Shown here one piece after another: positions 3,586-15,956 of a stretch of DNA of 64,000 bases. Origin of the DNA: Treponema sp. CETP13 (GTDB taxonomy: Bacteria > Spirochaetota > Spirochaetia > Treponematales > Treponemataceae); NCBI GenBank assembly GCA_001885315.1, contig MLPZ01000005.1, positions 1 to 64,000 on the forward strand. The letters run 5' to 3'. The notes beneath the pieces were generated by a model. The model saw only the letters and a program-made list of their open reading frames with translations. It did not search any database and had not been told where the DNA came from. How positions within the stretch are numbered: the first letter of the stretch is position 1; every line of letters starts with the position of its first letter. A program made the position numbers and the translations under genes.

Positions 3586-4221
3586 TTAGTTAAAAAGTTG
3601 TGCTAATTTTTCATATTGTTCATTAAATTTTGAAACATTAGTTTTTTTAAGTTTTTCGAGATTTTGTATTTACCAACAAACGGCAGGTAATCGTTCAAGA
3701 TTTGGGATTCTTATCGATGAAAAATCAGGTTTAAGTGAAACAAAATCAAGCAGAAATTCTCTGAAAGGTTGTATTTCTGTTTGAATAAATTGTACAAGTG
3801 TATTAAAAACAACATTATAGTCTGCATAGGAAAAGTCTGTTTCTGCTTTTTGGCAAATTCTACACAACTGAGGCTCATACACATATCCTCTAATTATGTA
3901 ATTGGGTTCTATTTTTATTGTAGCAACATGATTTGAAACAATAACTTTCTTTTTATTACTATTGCCTTGGAGAATTGCAGAATAACCTGCCTTTTTTAAA
4001 GCAACAACAATACTATCAAGAGCTTTGTTTATTTTTAAATAAGCTATATCATGGTCATCAAAATTTACATATGTTAAATCTATGTCCACAGAAAGACGAG
4101 GCATATTGCGATAAAACAAATTTATTGCAGTTCCACCCTTCAATGCAAAACAAGTTTCTTTTGCTATAAACGGAAGAACTTCAACAAGAAGAGCTACTTT
4201 ATCTATGTATGATTTTTTCAT
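3586..4221 (-). pseudogene. AbiEii-type nucleotidyltransferase toxin, decayed
   Basis: The N-terminal half has the AbiEii nucleotidyltransferase core (ALKGGTAINLFYR, then the metal-binding DIDLTY). Two defects are visible. A TAA at 3670-3672 follows PAVCW, where the family usually has a Lys, and the same frame then continues with a family-like tail (IQNLEKLKKTNVSKF) to a second TAA at 3586-3588. The middle is also short: NVV runs almost directly into the C-terminal region, so about 90-100 residues usual in the family are missing. Total length without the stop would be about 211 residues against roughly 300 in typical members. The toxin is probably inactive. Its ATG overlaps the end of abiEi by 4 bp. 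Confidence 0.75.
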
Positions 4222-4979
4222 ATTGCCTCTACATTTTCTATAACAATACGATATTTTTTATTGTATTGTCCGCCTTTTGTTATTTCTCTATCTCCAGATC
4301 CTAAATCTATTTTTTGTATATCAATATGCTTAATCCAAGCAAGCCCTGCTTGTTCAGCCATATACAAAAAAAGACGTTTTACTTTTATAGAGCAACAATG
4401 TTCTAAAAGACTTTGAACTAGAGCCGGTTTAGCTGTATTCAATAATTCTAGCACTTGATAGGTTTCTTGTAATGTATGAACAGAAGGTGTTAAATACACC
4501 ATTTCTAAAATAGCTCGTTCAATTGTTGGAATTCTTATTGTAAAATTACCGGTATCATAATTTGTAAATCCCATATCTTTGGGCAAAAAAGATGTCACAA
4601 AAAGCTCGTATTGTGAATGGTATGTAGAACAGAACCAAGCAGGAAGTTTTTCATTTCGATAACAAAACAACTGAGCTTTTCGTTCTAAAGTAAGATTATG
4701 CGTTTTTCCATATTTTTCGTCTAAGGCAGTATAACCAGCCTGATGAACACTTAATCCAAGTTCTTTTTGAAGTGTATATAGTGCACCTTCAAGACTAACC
4801 TCTTCACCAAGTACTGTATACGCACCGTTAGATATACGTGTAAGCCAGCCTGATCGAACTGCTGAACGTTGTAATTCACGAGAAAACCCTTTTTTCAACA
4901 TGCTGTCAGCTGTCAAAATTGTGTTATGTGAATGATTTTTAAGTATATCCTTTATATTTGTACTATTTTTAGTATTCAT
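4218..4979 (-). CDS. AbiEi-family antitoxin / transcriptional repressor
   Basis: This 253-residue protein has an N-terminal winged-helix region (GWLTRISNGAYTVLG, about residues 44-58) and the C-terminal AbiEi domain, which ends in a typical IDLGSGDREITKGGQYNKKY segment. AbiEi proteins repress their own operon and counter the AbiEii nucleotidyltransferase in a type IV-like system linked to phage abortive infection. The 4-bp overlap with the downstream toxin frame is the normal arrangement. This frame is intact although its partner is broken. A small inverted repeat (TTAAAAGA...TCTTTTAA, 5042-5063) upstream could be an operator. Confidence 0.8.
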   Translation of the reverse strand: MNTKNSTNIKDILKNHSHNTILTADSMLKKGFSRELQRSAVRSGWLTRISNGAYTVLGEEVSLEGALYTLQKELGLSVHQAGYTALDEKYGKTHNLTLERKAQLFCYRNEKLPAWFCSTYHSQYELFVTSFLPKDMGFTNYDTGNFTIRIPTIERAILEMVYLTPSVHTLQETYQVLELLNTAKPALVQSLLEHCCSIKVKRLFLYMAEQAGLAWIKHIDIQKIDLGSGDREITKGGQYNKKYRIVIENVEAI

Positions 4980-5184: not shown

Positions 5185-5958
5185 TCATGGTCGGCTTTTC
5201 CAAGCTAATAATTCTTCTTCTGTACTTATGACTTTACAACCACTAAATTGAGAAAGAAATCCGATGCGATCAGGTACATTTAATTCTTTATAAATTTTAC
5301 GCATTTGATTTCGTACTGTTCCTTCTTTTAAATTATAGTTTAGGGCAATATAGGTATATTTTAAATCAGAGAGAACTATTTTAATCCATTCTTTGTCACG
5401 TTCTGTTAGGTTAGGATATTTTGTAAGGTTTAAAATTTGGGGCTCTGAAAGTTCCTTCAAATTACGTACTTTTTCAAAAAGAAAAAGAATTATTATTGCA
5501 ATAACTAATAAATAGCCAGTTTTAGTAACTGCTGAATTAATAAAAATGGGTAATCCAAATCTAATTTCTGTGCATAAAAGTGCAATATAAATGAGTATAA
5601 TGCCCGTGATTTTACGTTCTGTATGGGTTTTTAATAAACCACGTACATATAATGTAACAATACACAAAATATACATACAGACACTCATTTGACAAGTTGG
5701 AACATCAATTATGAGTTCGCTCGAATATAAAAAACTAACAAATCCATACAATTCAAATTTAAGAGGATTAAAACAAAGGTATAAAAAAATCAAACACCCT
5801 GTACAATTTAAAATAAAAGCAAAAAGATTGCTAAAAACTTCTTTGTCACCAATTGGTCTAAAATAATCTTGATAAAACAGATGACGAAGAGTACTTGTTA
5901 ACAGAATAAAGAAAGCAACAATTGCAATTCTACGCCAAATTTGTGTCTTACCAACCAC
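5185..5958 (-). CDS. Membrane-bound LuxR-type transcriptional regulator
   Basis: About the first 170 of 257 residues form five or six hydrophobic helices. The C-terminal 65 residues are a LuxR/GerE helix-turn-helix (LTERDKEWIKIVLSDLKY, then NLKEGTVRNQMRKIYKELNV). Proteins with a membrane sensor and LuxR output respond to envelope or extracellular signals. The gene is 14 bp downstream of the 175-residue gene and divergent from the exporter, which suggests it controls the peptide locus. The ligand and direct targets are unknown. Confidence 0.75.
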   Translation of the reverse strand: MVGKTQIWRRIAIVAFFILLTSTLRHLFYQDYFRPIGDKEVFSNLFAFILNCTGCLIFLYLCFNPLKFELYGFVSFLYSSELIIDVPTCQMSVCMYILCIVTLYVRGLLKTHTERKITGIILIYIALLCTEIRFGLPIFINSAVTKTGYLLVIAIIILFLFEKVRNLKELSEPQILNLTKYPNLTERDKEWIKIVLSDLKYTYIALNYNLKEGTVRNQMRKIYKELNVPDRIGFLSQFSGCKVISTEEELLAWKSRP

Positions 5959-5972
5959 TAGAAGCCCCTTGT

Positions 5973-6500
5973 TTAAAAATATCCTAAACTATCAAGTATT
6001 GGGCAATAAACGTTGTTTATTTCTTTTTCTATAGAAGTTTTTAGAAGACAGTAGTTCCAGGTACCTGCATTTAACGGATTGTAGATATCGTTTTTTCTAT
6101 CATGTTCACAGGTTTCATGATAATGTTCTAACATAATATAACTAAGTAAATTCATTCCCTTTTCAATAATAGGTTGTTTTCCACCTTCAAAATTAGAAAT
6201 CAAAGAAAGTCGTTTAAAAAGATTTTTGTCATCAGAAGATATATGTGCACAGTATTTTTGAAATCCTTTAATTTCCGTTAGGTAGATACAAAGATGCGCA
6301 ATGGCGGTTCTGTTTGCATCTTTACAATCTGCAGAAAATGGAATTACTGCTATAATTTTTGCGGTAATACTATTTTTCAACTGTTGTTGTTCAAAGGCAT
6401 TCAATCTAAACACCTTTGTTAGTTCAGATACAAAATAGTTCCAGTCTAAAATTTCTTCAATTGTTTGTAGCGAAGTCTTTGAGTTTAATTTTATCTCCAT
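5973..6500 (-). CDS. Hypothetical protein of peptide locus
   Basis: I do not recognise this 175-residue protein. It is soluble, with no signal peptide or membrane helix, is rich in Ile/Leu/Lys and contains scattered Cys and His residues (for example HYHETCEHD near residues 131-139). It is the first gene of a two-gene unit with the LuxR-type regulator and is read away from the exporter. It could be a regulator, an immunity factor or a signal-handling protein. The start is supported by a GGGGA at 6504-6508 (minus strand) just upstream. Confidence 0.6.
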   Translation of the reverse strand: MEIKLNSKTSLQTIEEILDWNYFVSELTKVFRLNAFEQQQLKNSITAKIIAVIPFSADCKDANRTAIAHLCIYLTEIKGFQKYCAHISSDDKNLFKRLSLISNFEGGKQPIIEKGMNLLSYIMLEHYHETCEHDRKNDIYNPLNAGTWNYCLLKTSIEKEINNVYCPILDSLGYF

Positions 6501-6521: not shown

Positions 6522-6597
6522 ATTACTAAAGTAATTATAGTATTACTTATGTAATATTTAAAGTTATTTTGGTTCTTTTTTATATTACATATGTAAT
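6522..6597. promoter_or_regulatory. Three phased ATTAC-N4-GTAAT palindromes
   Basis: ATTACTAAAGTAAT (6522-6535), ATTACTTATGTAAT (6542-6555) and ATTACATATGTAAT (6584-6597) lie 20 and 42 bp apart, about two and four helical turns. They are in the divergent promoter region between the regulator unit and the exporter. Such phased palindromes are typical of a dimeric DNA-binding protein acting cooperatively. The LuxR-type protein at 5185 is the obvious candidate, but this is inference. Confidence 0.65.
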
Positions 6598-6634
6598 ATT
6601 TGGAGGTTTTTGAGTTGATTTTTGTAATTTAGGG

Positions 6635-6683: not shown

Positions 6684-8843
6684 GTGAAGTATTATCAACA
6701 GCTTGATGAAACCGATTGTGGGGCAGCTTGCCTTGCTATGATTGCATCATATTACAAAAAACACAAATCTATCACTTCTATTCGTGAGATTGCAGGTACC
6801 GATAAAAATGGTACTAATCTAGTCGGGATGGTTCAAGCTGCTCAAACAATGGGGTTTTCTACTCATGCCCTCAAGGGCAATAAAGATGCTTTAACAAAGG
6901 AGCTCCCCTTTCCGTTTATTGCTCATGTTGCTATAAAACATAATGATCTTATTTTGCAGCACTTTGTCGTTATAAATAAAATAGCAAATAATAAAATTGA
7001 AATCTGGGATCCAGATGAAACAAAAAAAATATATAAGCTTAATATTGATAAATTTGAAAAAATATGGACTGGTTATGTTCTTTTTCTTTCTCCAAATCAT
7101 AATTTTAAACAAACTAACGAGAAAGGCAATTTACTTATAAAATTTTTACCATTAATGAAGCCGTATAAAAATTTATTAATCATGGCCTGTTTTGCTTCTC
7201 TTATTTTAGTTATTTTTGGCATCCTTTCAGCTTTATACACCCGGTATATTATTGATGAAGTTTTGTTTTCGCAGGCAAAATTTACTCTCGCGGCTATTTC
7301 TGTAGGTATGTTAGTTATTATTGTTTTACAAGCAGTAATGGGAGCTGTTCGTAAAATCTTACTTACTCATTTTGCCTATAAAATAGACTTAAATCTTGTC
7401 TTTTCTTATTTTACTCATGTATTTCATTTACCATTACATTTTTTCGATTCAAGAAAAACAGGAGAAATTCTCTCTCGTATGCAAGATATTGGCAAGATAC
7501 AACAAACTCTTTCTCAGGGCGTAGTCTCCGTTATTATGGATACTGTTATGGTGCTTATTGTAGGTCCTGTTTTGTATGCAACCAATAAAACCTTATTTGG
7601 CATTATTATTGTTACCGTTCCGTTTTCTTCTGTAATATTATATGTCTATTCAAAATTATATAAAAAACAGTATAGAAAACTCATGGAAAATGCAGCTGAT
7701 GTTCAATCTTGTTTAGTCGAATCGGTAAATGGTGCTGCTACGGTTAAAGCTATGACGTGTGAGAGTACAACTATTGCAAATTATGAAAAACAGCAAATGG
7801 AAATGACCCGGACTGGTTGGAAAGCAGCACATTTGCAAATCTACCAGTCAATGTTTACAGAACTTATTAAGCAAATAAGTACAATAGTTATATTTTGGGT
7901 AGGAAGTTTGCTTATTATAAAAGGGAATTTAAGCATAGGAACCCTTATCAGTTTTACTGCTCTTGCAGGGTATTTTACAAACCCATTGCAGAGGCTTGTA
8001 AATTTACAAGCAGAATTACAAGAAGCTTTTGTTGCAGCGGATCGTTTAGGAGAAATCCTAGAATTAGAAGTTGAACAAGATGATAAAAGCAGATTGTTAC
8101 AGCCTGACCATTTTTATGGAAAAATAGAATGTACTGATGTGGCTTTTAGATATGGTACCCGAAGACCGGTATATGAACAGTTAAGCTTTTCTATTAATGC
8201 AGGAGAGCGAGTAGCTTTTGTTGGGCCTTCTGGATGTGGTAAAACAACTCTTGTTAAATTATTGCTAAAATTTTATGAATCAGAAAAAGGGAAAATATCC
8301 TTTGACAATCATGATATACGTGATTTAGATGCATATTACCTTCGCTCTCATGTAGGATACGTACCACAAGAAATATATTTGTTTTCTGGCACCATTGCAG
8401 ATAATATTGCACTTCATAAAGCTGATGCTACTCTCGAGGAAATTGCAACAGCAGCGATAAAAGCAGGGGCTGATGAATTTATAGAAAAACTTCCAGAACG
8501 ATATAATACTGTGATTGGAGAGCGAGGGGCAGATCTTTCTGGTGGAGAGCGCCAACGGTTAGCTTTAGCTCGAGCTATAGTAGGTGATCCAGATATATTA
8601 ATTTTGGATGAAGCAACAAGTAATTTAGATTCTGTTTCAGAGCAACTTATAAAAACTACAATAGAAAATATGAAAGAGAAACAGCTTACAACTATTATTA
8701 TTGCACATAGACTTTCTACGGTTATCGATTGTGACAAAATATTTGTTATGGATAAAGGCTCTATTGTACAAGTTGGAACACATGAAGACTTAAAAAAGGA
8801 AGAAGGTTTGTATCGCCAATTGTGGCAAGGGGTATTAGTATAA
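6684..8843 (+). CDS. C39-peptidase ABC exporter for double-glycine peptides
   Basis: A 719-residue PCAT-type protein. Residues 1-130 are a peptidase C39 domain with Cys12 in DETDCGAACL, His93 in QHFVVI and Asp109 in WDPD, the catalytic triad. Five or six membrane helices follow, then a nucleotide-binding domain with Walker A GPSGCGKTT (about 513), signature LSGGERQRLALARA (about 618) and Walker B ILILDEAT. The family cuts leader peptides after a Gly-Gly motif and exports the core. Two such precursors lie downstream, and HlyD/TolC partners at 13406 and 14574 would carry the product across the outer membrane. The start is GTG; the Shine-Dalgarno match is weak. Confidence 0.92.
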   Translation: MKYYQQLDETDCGAACLAMIASYYKKHKSITSIREIAGTDKNGTNLVGMVQAAQTMGFSTHALKGNKDALTKELPFPFIAHVAIKHNDLILQHFVVINKIANNKIEIWDPDETKKIYKLNIDKFEKIWTGYVLFLSPNHNFKQTNEKGNLLIKFLPLMKPYKNLLIMACFASLILVIFGILSALYTRYIIDEVLFSQAKFTLAAISVGMLVIIVLQAVMGAVRKILLTHFAYKIDLNLVFSYFTHVFHLPLHFFDSRKTGEILSRMQDIGKIQQTLSQGVVSVIMDTVMVLIVGPVLYATNKTLFGIIIVTVPFSSVILYVYSKLYKKQYRKLMENAADVQSCLVESVNGAATVKAMTCESTTIANYEKQQMEMTRTGWKAAHLQIYQSMFTELIKQISTIVIFWVGSLLIIKGNLSIGTLISFTALAGYFTNPLQRLVNLQAELQEAFVAADRLGEILELEVEQDDKSRLLQPDHFYGKIECTDVAFRYGTRRPVYEQLSFSINAGERVAFVGPSGCGKTTLVKLLLKFYESEKGKISFDNHDIRDLDAYYLRSHVGYVPQEIYLFSGTIADNIALHKADATLEEIATAAIKAGADEFIEKLPERYNTVIGERGADLSGGERQRLALARAIVGDPDILILDEATSNLDSVSEQLIKTTIENMKEKQLTTIIIAHRLSTVIDCDKIFVMDKGSIVQVGTHEDLKKEEGLYRQLWQGVLV

Positions 8844-8845
8844 AA

Positions 8846-9050
8846 TTTTTACAAGTTATTATCCGCGGTAGTAGCTTGTTAAAAATATGTCTTCGTCGAA
8901 GGCAAAATGTCAGCATAGTACGCAAATACTACACTGACAGCGGTAATTTGCAGTTACGCAAAGCAACGTACTGTAAATATACTGCATAAATTAAATTCTT
9001 CCAATAAAAAAAGTATTGGAAGAGACTAGGAGTTTGTTATGACAAACGAA
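8846..9050 (+). repeat. Duplicated 205-bp peptide leader, copy A
   Basis: It matches 10791-10995 without gaps and with about six substitutions, and covers the upstream region plus the first four codons (MTNE) of the precursor gene. It begins 3 nt after the exporter stop. Inside are a hairpin at 8908-8939 (TGTCAG and TAGTA pairing with TACTA and CTGACA), another at about 8998-9022 just before the ribosome-binding site, and a possible promoter (TTACGC 8954-8959, TATACT 8978-8983). It may be a regulatory leader RNA, a recombination cassette edge, or both. Confidence 0.8.
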
Positions 9051-9197
9051 ATTGCAAAGAAAGAAGAAAATGGGTTTTCTACACTTAAAAGTGAAGAATT
9101 ATTTGACATTGAAGGTGGCGGAGATATTACTATTGGACCTACTACTGGCCCTGATGGAAATCCTGGTATTAGCATTAAAGGAAAGATTAATAAATAA
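9039..9197 (+). CDS. Double-glycine leader peptide, precursor 1
   Basis: This 52-codon gene has AGGAG ending 7 nt before the ATG. The leader reads LKSEELFDIEGG, the hydrophobic/acidic pattern recognised by C39 peptidases, with cleavage expected after Gly27 (a third Gly follows). The predicted core of about 25 residues is hydrophilic and rich in Gly and Pro (ITIGPTTGPDGNPGISIKG), with no Cys and no aromatic residue. That is unlike pore-forming class II bacteriocins; a signalling peptide or an unusual modified peptide is possible. No lanthionine or other recognised modification enzyme is nearby. The first four codons match precursor 2. Confidence 0.8.
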   Translation: MTNEIAKKEENGFSTLKSEELFDIEGGGDITIGPTTGPDGNPGISIKGKINK

Positions 9198-9265: not shown

Positions 9266-10237
9266 ATGAAGCAAAAAAATTTATACATAGTTAATTTTAT
9301 TGTGATTTTAACTATTTTTATTATGTCATGTAAATCGGCTCCAGAACATACTACTAGTATTGATAAAAACTTTGAACCAACCGGCCTGATTGTAATTCCC
9401 TTTACGTATAATAGTGATGAATATATGCCTGTTTTTACTATGTCGAATAGTGACGGGGTAAAATTGCGTTTGTGTTTTGATAGTGGAAACTCGTGTTGTT
9501 TTATTAGTAAAAAGGGTATTGAAAAAGTTGGTAGTAATGAAAAAGAAATGGAAAGTGGTATATTTAAGCAGTTATTAGAAAAATATCCTGAGCAAAAAGA
9601 ATCTTTTTTAAGAAAAAAAGCAAAAAAAATGATAAAGGAAGGTAAATGTGGATGGACTTTTGACAGTTTAATTAAAGACAATTATAAAGTAGAAAATCGT
9701 TATTTTCAATATAGATCTAATTTTATAAAAGAAACTAATATAGATGGTTTAATTGGTTTGTCTTTTTTTGGAGATTGTAAAAATGTTGTAATAGATTATG
9801 TCCATCAAGTAATAGAAATTGATGCAGAAACTCTTGAAGGAAATAAATGGTCAATGACTAAAGTTCCCGATTTAGATTTATATAAAACACAAATTAGTGT
9901 TAATGGTATTGAACAATATGCTCTGATAGATACCGGTGCTAAACAAATGGCAATTCGAAAAAATTATACTGAGCCTGATACGATGTTGGACAAAGACAAA
10001 GTTGATTTTATTTACAATGGTAGTGCAGGTCTATCTTTTCCTTGGGTTTCTAACACGACTTTTGAATTCGTAAATATTCAAAAAAGATTATCTGCTTATA
10101 AATCAACAAACTTTTTAATGCATGCATCGGGTTTTGGGAAACGATGTGCGTATGTTTATAATTTGCTTGGTTATCCATTTTTTTGTGATACACGTATTCA
10201 ATTTGACTTTAAGAACAGCCAGTTTATTATTGAATAA
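9266..10237 (+). CDS. Two-lobed aspartyl protease-like lipoprotein
   Basis: A 323-residue protein with an N-terminal signal and lipobox IMSC (Cys22). Two retropepsin-like halves are visible. The first has FDSG (Asp72) followed by IDGLIGLSFF (159-168); the second has IDTG (Asp222) followed by LGYPFF (301-306). Each half thus has a catalytic D-S/T-G and the later hydrophobic-Gly turn, the plan of a single-chain pepsin-like enzyme. It should sit on the outer membrane or periplasmic face. Position between two precursor genes suggests peptide maturation, degradation or self-protection, all inferred. Confidence 0.7.
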   Translation: MKQKNLYIVNFIVILTIFIMSCKSAPEHTTSIDKNFEPTGLIVIPFTYNSDEYMPVFTMSNSDGVKLRLCFDSGNSCCFISKKGIEKVGSNEKEMESGIFKQLLEKYPEQKESFLRKKAKKMIKEGKCGWTFDSLIKDNYKVENRYFQYRSNFIKETNIDGLIGLSFFGDCKNVVIDYVHQVIEIDAETLEGNKWSMTKVPDLDLYKTQISVNGIEQYALIDTGAKQMAIRKNYTEPDTMLDKDKVDFIYNGSAGLSFPWVSNTTFEFVNIQKRLSAYKSTNFLMHASGFGKRCAYVYNLLGYPFFCDTRIQFDFKNSQFIIE

Positions 10238-10249
10238 GGAGAGTTTGTT

Positions 10250-10783
10250 ATGAGTTATTCAATAGAACCTGCATTTACCGTAACAAAAGAGTTGTCAAGA
10301 CAATTAATAAAAGTAAGCACGCAAGCTAAAAACCAATGGTTTTTTCCCGAAGGTGGATTTTCAAGTAATAGCCTTGATCATATAGGTGACATGTGGGTAC
10401 ATGAGAATTTTGTGGTTATAAGTGATACTGAAATTATAGCTTATTTTGAAGGCCAATGGGCAAGACCTTTGAATATTCTTCTTAATTTTAGATTAATACT
10501 TTTAGATGAAAAAAAAAGCTTTTTTGCCTGTAAAGCATTTTTTCAATATTTAGAGTATTTATTTGTTTCGCGAGGATGTGATGTTTTTAATTGGAGTGTT
10601 GCGACTGAGAATAGGCATGCTTATTTGTTATATGAAAAATTTGTGAAAAAAAATTGTGGTCACATAGTTGGAAGAAGAACAAGGAGTTTACAAAGTTATT
10701 GCGGGAAGATAAGCGATTCTGTTTTATATGAGATATCAAAAGAAGAATATTTTGATTGGAAAGATAGCAATCAGAGAAAATAA
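10250..10783 (+). CDS. GNAT-like N-acetyltransferase of peptide locus
   Basis: A 177-residue protein with a GNAT-like layout; the best-matching part is NWSVATENRHAYLLYEKFVKK (about 118-138), resembling the conserved motif B and C-terminal helix. The acetyl-CoA loop is not canonical, so the family call is moderate. It lies 12 bp after the protease gene with a good ribosome-binding site (AAGGAGA) and ends 8 bp before leader copy B. Possible substrates are a precursor peptide or an immunity target; nothing in the sequence decides this. Confidence 0.6.
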   Translation: MSYSIEPAFTVTKELSRQLIKVSTQAKNQWFFPEGGFSSNSLDHIGDMWVHENFVVISDTEIIAYFEGQWARPLNILLNFRLILLDEKKSFFACKAFFQYLEYLFVSRGCDVFNWSVATENRHAYLLYEKFVKKNCGHIVGRRTRSLQSYCGKISDSVLYEISKEEYFDWKDSNQRK

Positions 10784-10790
10784 TATAGTT

Positions 10791-10995
10791 TTTTTACTAG
10801 TTATTATCCGCGGTAGTAGCTTGTTAAAAATATGTCTTCGTCGAAGGCAAAATGTCAGCATAGTACGCAAATACTACACTGACAGCGGTAATTTGCAGTT
10901 ACGCAAAACAACGTATTGTAAATATACTGCATAAATTAACTTATTCCAATAAAAAAAGTATTAGAAGAGACTAGGAGTTTGTTATGACAAACGAA
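10791..10995 (+). repeat. Duplicated 205-bp peptide leader, copy B
   Basis: Gapless partner of 8846-9050. The main hairpin is conserved at 10853-10884. The hairpin next to the ribosome-binding site is weakened by two substitutions. The matching segment ends after codon 4 of precursor 2. Confidence 0.8.
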
Positions 10996-11214
10996 TTATG
11001 TATTAATGGATTTTCAGCAGTGTCTGAGGATGAAATGATGGTTATTGATGGTGGTGGTTGGATTTCTTTTGCATGTGGTGTATTAGGTGGAGTAGTTGGT
11101 ATTGTTTGTACTGCAGAAACTGCAAATCCTGTTACTATTATGGGAGCGACATCTGTTGGTGTTCTTGCAGGCATTACGATTGGTGATAATCTCGAAAATG
11201 CTCTTGAAAATTAA
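10984..11214 (+). CDS. Double-glycine leader peptide, precursor 2
   Basis: A 76-residue precursor. The leader ends in VSEDEMMVIDGG (Gly23-Gly24), a standard C39 cleavage site. The core of about 52 residues is hydrophobic and Gly/Ala/Val-rich (WISFACGVLGGVVGIVC, later GVLAGITIGDN), has two Cys ten residues apart that could form a disulfide, and has repeated small-residue spacing. These are features of class II, membrane-active bacteriocins. It shares the 205-bp leader and first codons with precursor 1 but nothing in the core. Ribosome-binding site AGGAG. Confidence 0.82.
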   Translation: MTNELCINGFSAVSEDEMMVIDGGGWISFACGVLGGVVGIVCTAETANPVTIMGATSVGVLAGITIGDNLENALEN

Positions 11215-11750: not shown

Positions 11751-12884
11751 ATGAAAGTGAGTAAAAATTGTTGTTTTGCAGTAATTGCTATTGCAAGTGT
11801 ATTATTGGGGTTTAGTAGTTGTAGTTCTACAAAACTTATAACAAAAAATGAATTGCCTAAAATGACAGAGACAGATGGATTTCTTGTAGTTCAACTTGAA
11901 TGCAATAAAAAAGATGATTGTAGCCTTGTTTTGTGGAATACGAGTGATATAAAAGAAGAGAGAATTAATTCCTATGCTAAAACAGTTAAAAGTGTGCGAT
12001 TAGATTCTGGCAAAAATTTGTATTTGTATAAAATCCCTGCTGGAGAATATGCATTTAAATATTTTAAAGTAGGAAATAAAATAAATCTTGCAATGGAAAC
12101 AGTTCCTATTAAAGTGGCTGTTGGCGAAATTGTGTATGTGGGTGATTTTAATATAGAAATTATCGATGGAAATTATTTAAAACCAACCGGTAATTATTCT
12201 GTTAAATCTAATTTTGATTCTTGCAAAGTAAGACTACAAAAAGAATTTTCACAAATAGCTGCAAAGTATAAAATTATTGATGGTAGTTGCAATTATACCG
12301 GTGAAAAAAAAGCTATGTCGCGAATCAATTTTATTACAAAAATTATTTCTCCTACCTCTCAAATTTTATCGGATGGACACTTTGCATATCCTTTGCCACC
12401 CAAATATCAGATTTCAGTAGATTATGCAGAAATGGGATATCAGTATGTTGCTAACAAATCGGTAGCTTTCCCTTTGGAAAATCGTTGGCTATTGGATTCT
12501 TTTACTGCATTATGTGTAGGTTTAGAAGCCCTAACATTCGATTCAGATACTCAGAGTGAAACTGAACACAACTTTGATATTCTAATGTCACTCGGTAGTC
12601 GTTATTATAGTCTTCCCTTGAACGAGGACAATTCGTGGGGCTTTTATTCGAGTGGATATCCTTTGTACAAAGAATCGCTTAATGATTGTTTAGATAAAAA
12701 CTTTAAATGGAATATTGCGTATGAGTGTGGGCTTAGTTTTATGCTTTCTCCTGCAAAAATGTTAGATATTGCTATTGGTATGAGTGAAAACGATATTATT
12801 AGTTCGACTAATTCCGAAGACTATTTGGATAATACTAACTTTTTTATAAGTGCTAAAGTTGGTCACGGAAAGGCGCAACAATAA
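11751..12884 (+). CDS. Lipoprotein of peptide locus, unknown function
   Basis: A 377-residue protein with a type II signal peptide (ASVLLGFSSC, lipidated Cys near residue 24). An N-terminal beta-rich module contains a DUF2846-like LYLYKIPAGEYAFKYF stretch (about 88-103). The remainder is not recognised; its C-terminus (NFFISAKVGHG) resembles outer-membrane beta strands. Good ribosome-binding site (AGGAG). Position before the GyrI-like gene and the export genes suggests an envelope role, such as immunity or support of secretion. No enzyme motif is visible. Confidence 0.6.
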   Translation: MKVSKNCCFAVIAIASVLLGFSSCSSTKLITKNELPKMTETDGFLVVQLECNKKDDCSLVLWNTSDIKEERINSYAKTVKSVRLDSGKNLYLYKIPAGEYAFKYFKVGNKINLAMETVPIKVAVGEIVYVGDFNIEIIDGNYLKPTGNYSVKSNFDSCKVRLQKEFSQIAAKYKIIDGSCNYTGEKKAMSRINFITKIISPTSQILSDGHFAYPLPPKYQISVDYAEMGYQYVANKSVAFPLENRWLLDSFTALCVGLEALTFDSDTQSETEHNFDILMSLGSRYYSLPLNEDNSWGFYSSGYPLYKESLNDCLDKNFKWNIAYECGLSFMLSPAKMLDIAIGMSENDIISSTNSEDYLDNTNFFISAKVGHGKAQQ

Positions 12885-13405: not shown

Positions 13406-14566
13406 ATGAAAGATGAAAAAGAAACGCTAGTGCATTATGAAGATCTAAAGCTACTCCCAAAAACACGTGATTTTTTTGATACGCAGACTTCAAAAGCTAT
13501 CCCTGTGTTTATAATTGTGTTGTTTGCTATTCTTGCAGGGTTTCTTATATGGGCAAGTTTTGCAAAGATGGATGATACGATAAAAGCAAATGCAATTTTA
13601 CGGCCGGTAGATACTATTTCTTCTTTACGATCTTTGGTAAGTGGTGAAATAGTAGAAAAGTACTATACGCAAAATGAACAGGTAAAAAAAGGACATCTTT
13701 TATTGAAAATAGATAATGTTTCTGAATCAATAAACCTTGAAAATTGTAAAATACAATTAAAAAAAATAATTGAAGAAATAGAAGAAGAAAACATATTAAT
13801 TGATTCTATAAATTCCTGTCAAAACAAAGCAGAAAAAAACAGTAATGCATGGGTTAAGGCTGAAACATATCTTGCTGAATATAATAGGCAGCAAAATGTT
13901 TTAGAACAGCAAAAACAGGCATTTCAACAAGAAGACAATATGCCTGAATCACTTCGAATACAACAAAAAATTGATGACTGTAAAGCCACTTTAGAGCAAT
14001 CAACCTTTTCTTTTTCTTCTTGGAAAAATGACCATATGATGCAAGCAACAAATTTGCTCAATAGTTTAAATAAGCAAAAACAATCTTTAGAATTACAAAT
14101 TGTTTCAAGTCAACGAACTATAAAAAATGCCAATTTGTATGCACCAATTGATGGTTATATAAATGAAATCATGCAATTAAACAGCGGAGATTTTGTAATA
14201 GCAGGAAATGAATTACTTCGTATTATTCCAGATGATGATAAAAACTTAAAAGTTGAAATTATTGTTGATGCGGCGCACATTGCTCGTATAAAAACGGGAC
14301 AAGAAGCAAAACTGCGGTTTCCAGGCTTGCCACCATCAACATTTGGGCAACTTTCGTCGTATATTACAATTATTCCTGCTGATATGATTATTGTTTCAAA
14401 TACACCTGTTTTTAATGTAGAAGCTGATGTTCCAAATCCTTATCTTGAATCGTTTAATGGTGAAAAAATACATCTACGATCAGGTATTAGTGCTGAAGCG
14501 CGTATAATTATTTCTCACGATACTGTGTTGCACATGATTCTGCGCAAGTTAGATTTCTTAAATTGA
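13406..14566 (+). CDS. HlyD-family periplasmic adaptor
   Basis: A 386-residue membrane fusion protein. It has a cytoplasmic N-terminus, one membrane helix (about 31-50, FIIVLFAILAGFLIWASF), a biotinyl-lipoyl-like half (LVSGEIVEKYYTQNEQVKKG), a coiled-coil hairpin (about 105-230), the second lipoyl half (LYAPIDGYINEIMQLNSGD) and a beta-barrel region (GQEAKLRFPGLP). It links the C39 exporter to the outer-membrane channel. A typical ribosome-binding site (AAGGA) precedes it and the TolC-like gene follows after 7 bp. Confidence 0.9.
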   Translation: MKDEKETLVHYEDLKLLPKTRDFFDTQTSKAIPVFIIVLFAILAGFLIWASFAKMDDTIKANAILRPVDTISSLRSLVSGEIVEKYYTQNEQVKKGHLLLKIDNVSESINLENCKIQLKKIIEEIEEENILIDSINSCQNKAEKNSNAWVKAETYLAEYNRQQNVLEQQKQAFQQEDNMPESLRIQQKIDDCKATLEQSTFSFSSWKNDHMMQATNLLNSLNKQKQSLELQIVSSQRTIKNANLYAPIDGYINEIMQLNSGDFVIAGNELLRIIPDDDKNLKVEIIVDAAHIARIKTGQEAKLRFPGLPPSTFGQLSSYITIIPADMIIVSNTPVFNVEADVPNPYLESFNGEKIHLRSGISAEARIIISHDTVLHMILRKLDFLN

Positions 14567-14573
14567 GTGGTAT

Positions 14574-15956
14574 ATGAAAAAGAAAGTATTAATAATAATC
14601 GTCTCTATTTTGGCTTTGGAATGGGGTGCTGTTGCACAAGAAACTGAATTAGAGCGCTTGTGGCAAACAACTATGCAAAATAATGGAGATGTATTATCTG
14701 CCCAACATACGTACGAAAGTGCCTGTTTATCTCGTAGAACTTTGGATGCTACCTATGCTCCATCGGTAAGTACCAGTACTTCGTCTTCTTTTCCTGATGA
14801 ATATGAATGGGATGAATGCCCTGCAAGTGTATCTTCTTCTGTAAGCCTTAGCCAGCCGTTGCCGGGTGGTACTACTCTCGGACTAACTGGAACGTATGCG
14901 CTATCAACTGCAGATGTAAACTCTGTGCAATATATTAGTCAAGTTCCTACTATTTCTATTACTTTATCGCAAAGTTTAGCTCCTTTTTGGTCACAAGGGA
15001 CGCTTAAAGATCCGACCAAACTCTCACTCGAACAACAAAAACAGTATTACTATTACCAGCTACTCTATACCAAACAACAAACTTTGCAAACTGTGACGCA
15101 ATATTATGTATTGTGTTTAATTTATAAAAAGAAAATAGATGTATATAATGCGTCTATAGCTTATAAGCAAAAACAAATAGAAGCTTTGACAGAACTAAAA
15201 AAAACAGGTGGGACAAATTTAGCAAAAATAGCAGAATTAAAAACTTCACAATGGTCTGATGAGCAAAGTATGAGTGATGTTCAAATTACGTATCAAGAAT
15301 ATTGTAAATATCTAAAAGATGCTTGTGGAATTGATGCTTTTCAAATCAAAAAGGCTCACTTACCTTCTAATGAAACTAAAATTGCTCTTGCCTATATAAA
15401 TAACGTTTCAGATCCATGTGGCAAAGCTCTTTTATTAAAAATAGATATGCTTACTACTACATCTCAATTAACAAAACAAAACTCGGCTCCGTTACTTGGC
15501 TTGTCATTTACGCCAAGTTGGGGACTAGAAACGTTAGAAACAACGGATTGGAAATCGGCATGGGATAAAGACAAAACCTATTCATGGACAGCAAGTGTTT
15601 CGCTAAATTTTACCCCATTTATTTCATCTTTGTATTCTCATACAAAAGATACAGAAAATATTCAATTACAAACAGCACAAGATGCCTATAGTTATTACGT
15701 TAAACAAAAAAGGTATGTGAAAGACAAATATCAGACACTTTTAGAGTCTTTTAGACAACAGCAAACACAAGCGGAGCAACTTTGTTCCGAATTAGCCCAA
15801 CTTGCAACAGATTCTAAACAGCAACTTGATTTAGGAGCTCTCTCTCAGCTTGATTATGATTCGATTCAACTACAGGTACAAAGTTGTAACGCAACACTGG
15901 ATTATATAAATCTCTATATGTGGCTGTATAACTGGCAGATAGAAATGTTAGAATAA
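14574..15956 (+). CDS. TolC-like outer-membrane channel protein
   Basis: A 460-residue protein with a signal peptide (about 1-21, ending AVAQ) and the long alternating helices and short beta strands of the outer-membrane efflux family. Recognisable elements are LERLWQTTMQNNGDVLSAQH near the mature N-terminus and SVSLSQPLPGGTTLG. With the adaptor and the C39 exporter it would form a type I secretion route across both membranes. It is the last gene of the island and ends 4 bp before the right attachment repeat. Confidence 0.85.
   Translation: MKKKVLIIIVSILALEWGAVAQETELERLWQTTMQNNGDVLSAQHTYESACLSRRTLDATYAPSVSTSTSSSFPDEYEWDECPASVSSSVSLSQPLPGGTTLGLTGTYALSTADVNSVQYISQVPTISITLSQSLAPFWSQGTLKDPTKLSLEQQKQYYYYQLLYTKQQTLQTVTQYYVLCLIYKKKIDVYNASIAYKQKQIEALTELKKTGGTNLAKIAELKTSQWSDEQSMSDVQITYQEYCKYLKDACGIDAFQIKKAHLPSNETKIALAYINNVSDPCGKALLLKIDMLTTTSQLTKQNSAPLLGLSFTPSWGLETLETTDWKSAWDKDKTYSWTASVSLNFTPFISSLYSHTKDTENIQLQTAQDAYSYYVKQKRYVKDKYQTLLESFRQQQTQAEQLCSELAQLATDSKQQLDLGALSQLDYDSIQLQVQSCNATLDYINLYMWLYNWQIEMLE

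Follow-up and report, generated by a model that had tools for sequence, protein, structure and literature searches.

The window, a stretch of 64,000 nucleotides from Treponema sp. CETP13, holds an export locus for small peptides in which the gene for an exported aspartic protease sits between two peptide genes (Table 1). All the parts of a C39-ABC (PCAT) export system are present: an ABC exporter with a C39 domain, an HlyD-type protein, a TolC-type protein and peptides with Gly-Gly (GG) leaders. A preliminary description of this DNA had placed the protease within a peptide export locus, and the gene content bears this out. Loci of this kind were known in the genus beforehand. For example, the TepA and TepB loci of T. 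denticola also combine a C39-ABC transporter with an HlyD protein and GG-leader proteins (PMC4947327); the word 'aspartyl' is absent from the main text of that paper.

The protease gene starts 69 bp past the stop codon of peptide 1, which is likely its partner. No such protease follows peptide 2. The product of the next gene has a GNAT fold: a relative in another locus (L034:7276-7821) passes PF00583, and the AlphaFold2 model of the window protein (pLDDT 66) matches GNAT structures, a lasso-peptide acetyltransferase among them. A gene for a GNAT-fold protein also adjoins the protease gene in L048, L057, L059 and L072, and short pieces of it are found in L063, L064 and L080. The two copies of a 215-nt direct repeat are 95% identical. 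Since the repeat stands before both peptide genes, peptide 1, the protease and the GNAT-fold gene together form a cassette of 1945 bp.

The divergent minus-strand regulators (5185-6500) recur in sister loci. Between them and the transporter gene lie two 42-nt repeats (6541-6624), the second of which contains the perfect palindrome TATTACATATGTAATA and the first a near-palindromic version of it; these repeats are a possible operator. The locus is adjoined by an AbiEii/AbiEi type IV toxin-antitoxin pair (3670-4979, minus strand), whose AbiEii protein (183 aa) matches only positions 2-127 of the 238 in the model and looks truncated. A pair of IS3-like transposase genes (66-1210) is also found near the locus.

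Table 1. Features of the peptide export locus, with positions in the window.
Feature	Position	Strand	Basis or remark
LuxR-type (GerE) regulator with membrane segments	5185..5958	-	PF00196, 20.9 bits, below cut-off
175-aa protein, divergent from transporter	5973..6500	-	Kept together with the LuxR-type gene in sister loci
Peptidase-containing ABC transporter (C39, TM, ATPase)	6684..8843	+	PF03412, PF00664, PF00005
215-nt direct repeat, copy 1	8836..9050	+	Covers first codons of peptide 1 and the sequence before them
GG-leader peptide 1, 52 aa, leader ...FSTLKSEELFDIEGG, core GDITIGPTTGPDGNPGISIKGKINK	9039..9197	+	Directly upstream of protease
Two-lobed aspartic protease (predicted), exported, probable lipoprotein, 323 aa	9266..10237	+	Pfam, homologue conservation, AlphaFold2 model
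Lipobox I-M-S-C22 (putative)	9320..9331	+	Sequence; Cys22 invariant in 18-sequence alignment
Lobe-1 catalytic motif D72-S-G	9479..9487	+	D72 in 49/49, G74 in 43/49 homologues
Lobe-1 psi-loop turn L-I-G164	9749..9757	+	G164 in 48/49 homologues
Lobe-2 catalytic motif D222-T-G, then Ala	9929..9937	+	D222 in 48/49, G224 in 47/49 homologues
Lobe-2 psi-loop turn L-L-G302	10163..10171	+	G302 in 48/49 homologues
GNAT-fold protein, 177 aa	10250..10783	+	12 bp past protease stop
215-nt direct repeat, copy 2	10781..10995	+	Precedes peptide 2 and covers its first codons
GG-leader peptide 2, 76 aa, hydrophobic Gly-rich core	10984..11214	+	Weakly like class IIb bacteriocins
Truncated ORF, 143 aa	11244..11675	+	Behind peptide 2; no family match
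Lipoprotein, 377 aa, no assigned family	11751..12884	+	Within export locus
HlyD-type membrane fusion protein	13406..14566	+	PF13437
TolC-type outer membrane protein	14574..15956	+	PF02321

Export Signal and Catalytic Motifs of the Protease

The reading frame of the protease begins with ATG and is open throughout. Its N-terminus, MKQKNLYIVNFIVILTIFIMSC-K, consists of a hydrophobic signal followed by a lax lipobox, and the protein is likely, from these sequence features, to be a lipoprotein. With a pattern that allows M at -2, the lipobox is found in 31 of 49 family members, including the window protein; a stricter pattern matches 30 of the 49 and excludes it.

Both D-S/T-G motifs, with their hydrophobic-Gly turns, lie where the preliminary description had put them, behind a lipobox, and the conservation of the two aspartates on which it had made its case depend is found in 49 (Asp72) and 48 (Asp222) of the 49 full-length homologues aligned. 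Identity in at least 46 of these 49 sequences occurs at only seven of 284 positions (residues 40-323), namely D72, G164, D222, T223, G224, G302 and D314, six of which fall in the catalytic or turn motifs. Chance occurrence of the motifs is ruled out by this conservation. Both aspartates are kept in 22 of the 23 family members from peptide loci. In one family member beside a C39-ABC gene (L079:6249-7385) the second catalytic Asp has been lost.

Fold and Relation to Known Aspartic Proteases

Pfam family Asp_protease_2 (PF13650) matches the window protein in two stretches with 24.2 bits, just short of the cut-off of 24.3 (E 5.7e-5). The scores of relatives fall on both sides of that value: 34.4 (L073) and 24.4 (L059) above it, and 22.9 (L071), 20.6 (L060), 19.6 (L036) and 15.2 (L107) below it, with no PF13650 match for the L045 relative in the Pfam scan. 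Among NCBIfam models the protein is weakly near TIGR02281. Membership of pepsin family A1 by sequence was rejected because PF00026 gave no match up to E 10, in a search where HMMER filters drop weak matches. A phmmer search of the PDB with the single window protein returned chance matches only, and the best PDB match to a sequence profile was ApRick (E 0.008). The profiles of lobe 1 and lobe 2 can be aligned with each other (hhalign probability 97, E 2.3e-11).

An AlphaFold2 model built from an 18-sequence alignment (pLDDT 73.4, pTM 0.71) was compared with known structures. Foldseek placed a putative endopeptidase of Bacteroides fragilis (PDB 9iy9) first (E 1.2e-9), with plasmepsins and renin as the next matches. 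By VIA-align, 9iy9 superposes with Z 18.3 over 231 residues and covers both lobes, while rhizopuspepsin, endothiapepsin and pepsin give Z of about 16 over residues 40-323; for human pepsin (1pso) the values are Z 15.7 and rmsd 3.1 for 210 residues. The xylanase inhibitor 1t6e is also among the structural matches. In the model, each lobe is retropepsin-like and the whole is a two-lobed, pepsin-like chain, as had been proposed from the sequence. A single-lobe, dimeric retropepsin (A2-like) is ruled out, since one chain carries both motifs and both lobes. The structure prediction that the preliminary description had called for thus returns the two lobes directly; that Asp72 and Asp222 face each other as one active site is implied by the superposition over both lobes.

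Two-lobed aspartic proteases are already known in bacteria (PMC2761423; PDB 9iy9). The hallmarks of bilobed pepsins described by Rawlings and Bateman (PMC2761423), two D-T/S-G and two hydrophobic-hydrophobic-Gly motifs, are shared by the window protease with family A1 and the shewasins, as are the two lobes. In most bacterial A1 homologues Ala stands behind the second D-T-G and has been linked to activity at neutral pH (PMC2761423), and lobe 2 of the window protease has the same D-T-G-A. In contrast to the bacterial A1 homologues, for which an intracellular location has been predicted (PMC2761423), the window protease is exported. The retropepsin-like proteins APRc/ApRick, Asp_protease_2 and TIGR02281 resemble each of its lobes, but retropepsin-like bacterial proteases have one lobe and dimerise, whereas here two lobes are joined in one chain. 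The B. fragilis protein 9iy9 is, like the window protease, an exported, bacterial, bilobed aspartic protease; it differs in its longer chain (420 residues, matched part 157-437) and is 15% identical. No paper on 9IY9 was found among open-licence PubMed Central papers.

Distribution and Pairing with GG Peptides

A profile search found relatives of the protease in 51 of 274 genomes of the same bacterial family. In a public genome collection 14 loci were found, with titles that name Treponema, Spirochaetaceae or Spirochaetales. Spread on plasmids was considered and rejected, since tblastn gave no plasmid match to the window protease at E 0.01.

The link to exported peptides, claimed earlier from this one locus, recurs across genomes of the Treponema family. 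For 12 of 52 protease ORFs a GG-peptide gene precedes on the same strand at a distance of at most 600 bp. Of the other ORFs of 120 aa or more in those fetched stretches, 20 of 927 have such a neighbour (Fisher 1.4e-8, a test that ignores relatedness). A C39-ABC gene is found within 10 kb of 17 of 58 protease ORFs. By genome, the transporter (counted at E at most 1e-100) is present in 24 of the 51 with the protease and in 43 of the 223 without it (Fisher 1e-4, relatedness again ignored).

The protease does not accompany every such transporter. Among loci whose transporter shares 47% identity or more with that of the window, 8 of 25 have it and 17 lack it, these 25 being all the loci listed at that identity, several on short contigs. 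Below 47% it occurs in 2 of 23, which is not a frequency, because those loci were hand-picked and L079 and L107 were chosen for a protease hit already seen; loci L048-L087 were likewise selected for holding the protease. With 8 of 25 related transporter loci having it, the protease is accessory to certain peptides and not to export as such, and a role needed for export itself was discarded on the same count.

On the protease tree the label 'peptide locus', set by hand for 18 loci and partly from GNAT or small-peptide neighbours, changes 9 times against a shuffled mean of 16.6, so the association is recurrent and not confined to a single clade. Recognised peptide genes are, by the same hand-set label, missing from the stretches around 26 of the 49 aligned proteases, and the family therefore also has other or orphan uses. 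For example, the proteases of a T. vincentii and T. bryantii clade sit beside ordinary genes.

The gene order recurs in sister loci. Examples are L073, with peptide, protease, transporter, HlyD and TolC, as well as L071, L057, and L107, where peptide and protease genes alternate. Several divergent protease copies share one locus with several peptides in L048, L072 and L107. Between the window and sister loci the protease is 24-26% identical, while the transporter is 50-54% and the GNAT-fold protein 51-55% identical; this is as for a peptide-specific part, but the low value could reflect paralogy. The partner peptides are polar and rich in Ser, Thr and Gly rather than pore-former-like. Their highest 15-residue hydropathy is lower than that of peptides from loci without the protease (p 0.0496, an exploratory hint, with a spurious ORF in L088 and 13 'ASPlocus' peptides left out).

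Other Proteases Behind GG-Peptide Genes

A listing of the 41 genes directly behind GG-peptide genes shows that this slot can hold proteases of other types. It is taken by S41 peptidases in L100 and, two times, in L109, by a protein of the CPBP/Rce1 type in L057 (PF02517, E 7e-7), by an M23 protein in L116 and, in L097, by a second kind of two-lobed aspartic protease, one whose tail is PDZ-like; many of the 41 genes belong to no known family. Among PCAT-selected loci, proteases fill 5 of 23 slots against 12 of 491 controls (Fisher 5e-4, relatedness ignored), a count that is 4 of 23 by profile search alone, L097 having been added afterwards by motif, and that includes L107, a biased pick. Over all loci the proportions are 16 of 41 and 59 of 955; here L097 was added to the slot genes by motif, and the controls gained L048:16016 and L069:2730. 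These tests leave aside the CPBP protein of L057, the M23 protein of L116 and, in L093, a weak papain-like match.

Exported S41 proteases also form arrays in C39-ABC peptide loci, with four genes in L109:2114-12191, four in L100:4268-18298 and two in L048:1313-13736; some of these genes are directly behind GG-peptide genes, in parallel to the aspartic proteases. The second aspartic type was found by motif (L097:11367-12629, L069:2730-4094 and L048:16016-17035) and is missed by the family profile and the Pfam aspartic models. Its L097 member has the PDZ-like C-terminus; for the aspartic-PDZ protein of L069, phmmer gave nothing useful and the Pfam scan no match. Three members of the window protease family occur together in L048, along with two S41 genes and a protein that has the L097-type motifs.

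Proteases have been tied to antimicrobial peptides before, and proteolytic bacteriocin resistance is established. The S41 protein NSR degrades nisin and so confers resistance (PMC4828448), and it has been suggested that immunity proteins of the CPBP/Abi type act by degrading their bacteriocins (PMC8538875). S41 and CPBP genes occupy the same slot as the window protease, from which NSR and CPBP proteins differ in having unrelated folds and catalytic types; NSR, moreover, is the resistance gene of a non-producer.

Genes for modifying enzymes have been detected in sister loci with the protease. These are radical SAM genes (L048:3677-4993, L057:13049-14368 and L091:5679-7046) and family-2 glycosyltransferase genes (L071:3945-6335, L072:10269-12614 and L073:11729-14038), and they adjoin Thr/Ser/Gly-rich GG peptides, which are possibly new modified peptides of Treponema. 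In the window export locus neither a radical SAM nor a family-2 glycosyltransferase gene was seen.

Possible Functions of the Protease

The window protease may be an exported, single-chain aspartic endopeptidase that is dedicated to peptide 1 and degrades returning or leaked peptide for self-protection; this reading is a tentative one, given somewhat less than an even chance. Peptide 1 would be made with its leader, the C39 domain would cut behind Gly-Gly, and the core would leave through the ABC-HlyD-TolC channel. A signal of its own would take the protease out of the cytoplasm, a lipid anchor would tether it to the envelope, and, as in pepsin, Asp72 and Asp222 would build a single active site within one chain. 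Copies of peptide 1 that return or leak into the periplasm would then be its substrate, and their cleavage would protect the producer from a presumably toxic peptide.

Immunity genes of class II bacteriocins are usually found directly behind the peptide gene, and the window protease gene has that position. This place, the absence of the protease from 17 of 25 related loci and the presence of S41 and CPBP genes in the same slot favour peptide-specific neutralisation, and the low identity of the protease suits such a part. In a T1SS the exported peptide bypasses the periplasm, so a protease for returning peptide fits better than a periplasmic maturase. There are also points against self-protection. 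The partner peptides are not visibly toxin-like, and none of the peptides here has a known killing activity; more than half of the aligned proteases (26 of 49) lie outside recognised peptide loci, and peptide 2 has no such protease behind it; paralogy could explain the low identity, and the L079 protein is without its second Asp.

Self-immunity by degradation is judged more likely for the window protease than maturation, which would have the protease trim or open the exported peptide after leader removal, with the cut peptide as the active product. Maturation, rated unlikely but the chief rival, draws on the same pairing of peptide and protease genes; the radical SAM or glycosyltransferase genes of six sister loci make multi-step processing plausible, and the long low-complexity cores in L048, L057 and L073 could hold cleavable parts. 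However, the leader is already removed by the C39 domain, and an enzyme missing from most closely related transporter loci (some on short contigs) is outside the core pathway. The bypass of the periplasm means that the protease would need to be exposed at the surface. In addition, passages of a review of leader-removing proteases name no aspartic protease (PMC10885120).

It is somewhat less likely still that the gene encodes a general envelope or nutrient protease, used for peptide recycling or for cleavage of another envelope protein, whose place in mobile peptide loci is a coincidence. A pairing with peptides far above the control, the clustering of the peptide-locus label on the tree and the several divergent copies that share a locus with several peptides all argue against this, whereas the many members with no recognised peptide genes nearby, the T. 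vincentii/T. bryantii clade included, would agree with it. The retropepsin-like RloA of Pseudomonas offers a precedent, with envelope roles that have no bacteriocin connection (PMC12239564). A dead pepsin fold, acting as a non-catalytic, peptide-binding lipoprotein like the sequestering immunity protein NisI, is very improbable. Inactive bilobed folds such as 1t6e do exist, and the L079 protein has lost its second Asp, but nearly all members from peptide loci keep both aspartates, and no part of the protein is better conserved than the motifs.

Self-protection by degradation could also be more general. In the peptide-export loci of the Treponema family, the slot behind each GG-peptide gene would then be an exchangeable protease module (two-lobed aspartic, aspartic-PDZ, S41 or CPBP), each protease matched to its own peptide, in a Gram-negative phylum with a double membrane. 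This extension is doubtful, and it is equally doubtful that the window protease is the pepsin-like version of such a module.

Implications

No report of a bilobed aspartic protease paired with a GG peptide was found in open-licence PubMed Central papers, and passages of PMC10885120 and PMC6411480 contain no such pairing. In the passages of a Bacteroides paper that deals with an aspartyl protease, the protease belongs to a different operon. In bacteria the pepsin-like fold has been characterised mainly in a few enzymes, and A1 members are predicted to be intracellular. If the reading given here is correct, this fold would work outside the cytoplasm, partnered with ribosomal exported peptides, and aspartic proteases would be a further entry in the small set of protease types linked with bacteriocin immunity or with the processing of peptides. 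A simple test system would then need just a small peptide, a soluble enzyme and a known inhibitor. A peptide gene immediately before a bilobed aspartic or S41 protease would also be a search handle for unrecognised peptides of gut and oral Treponema.
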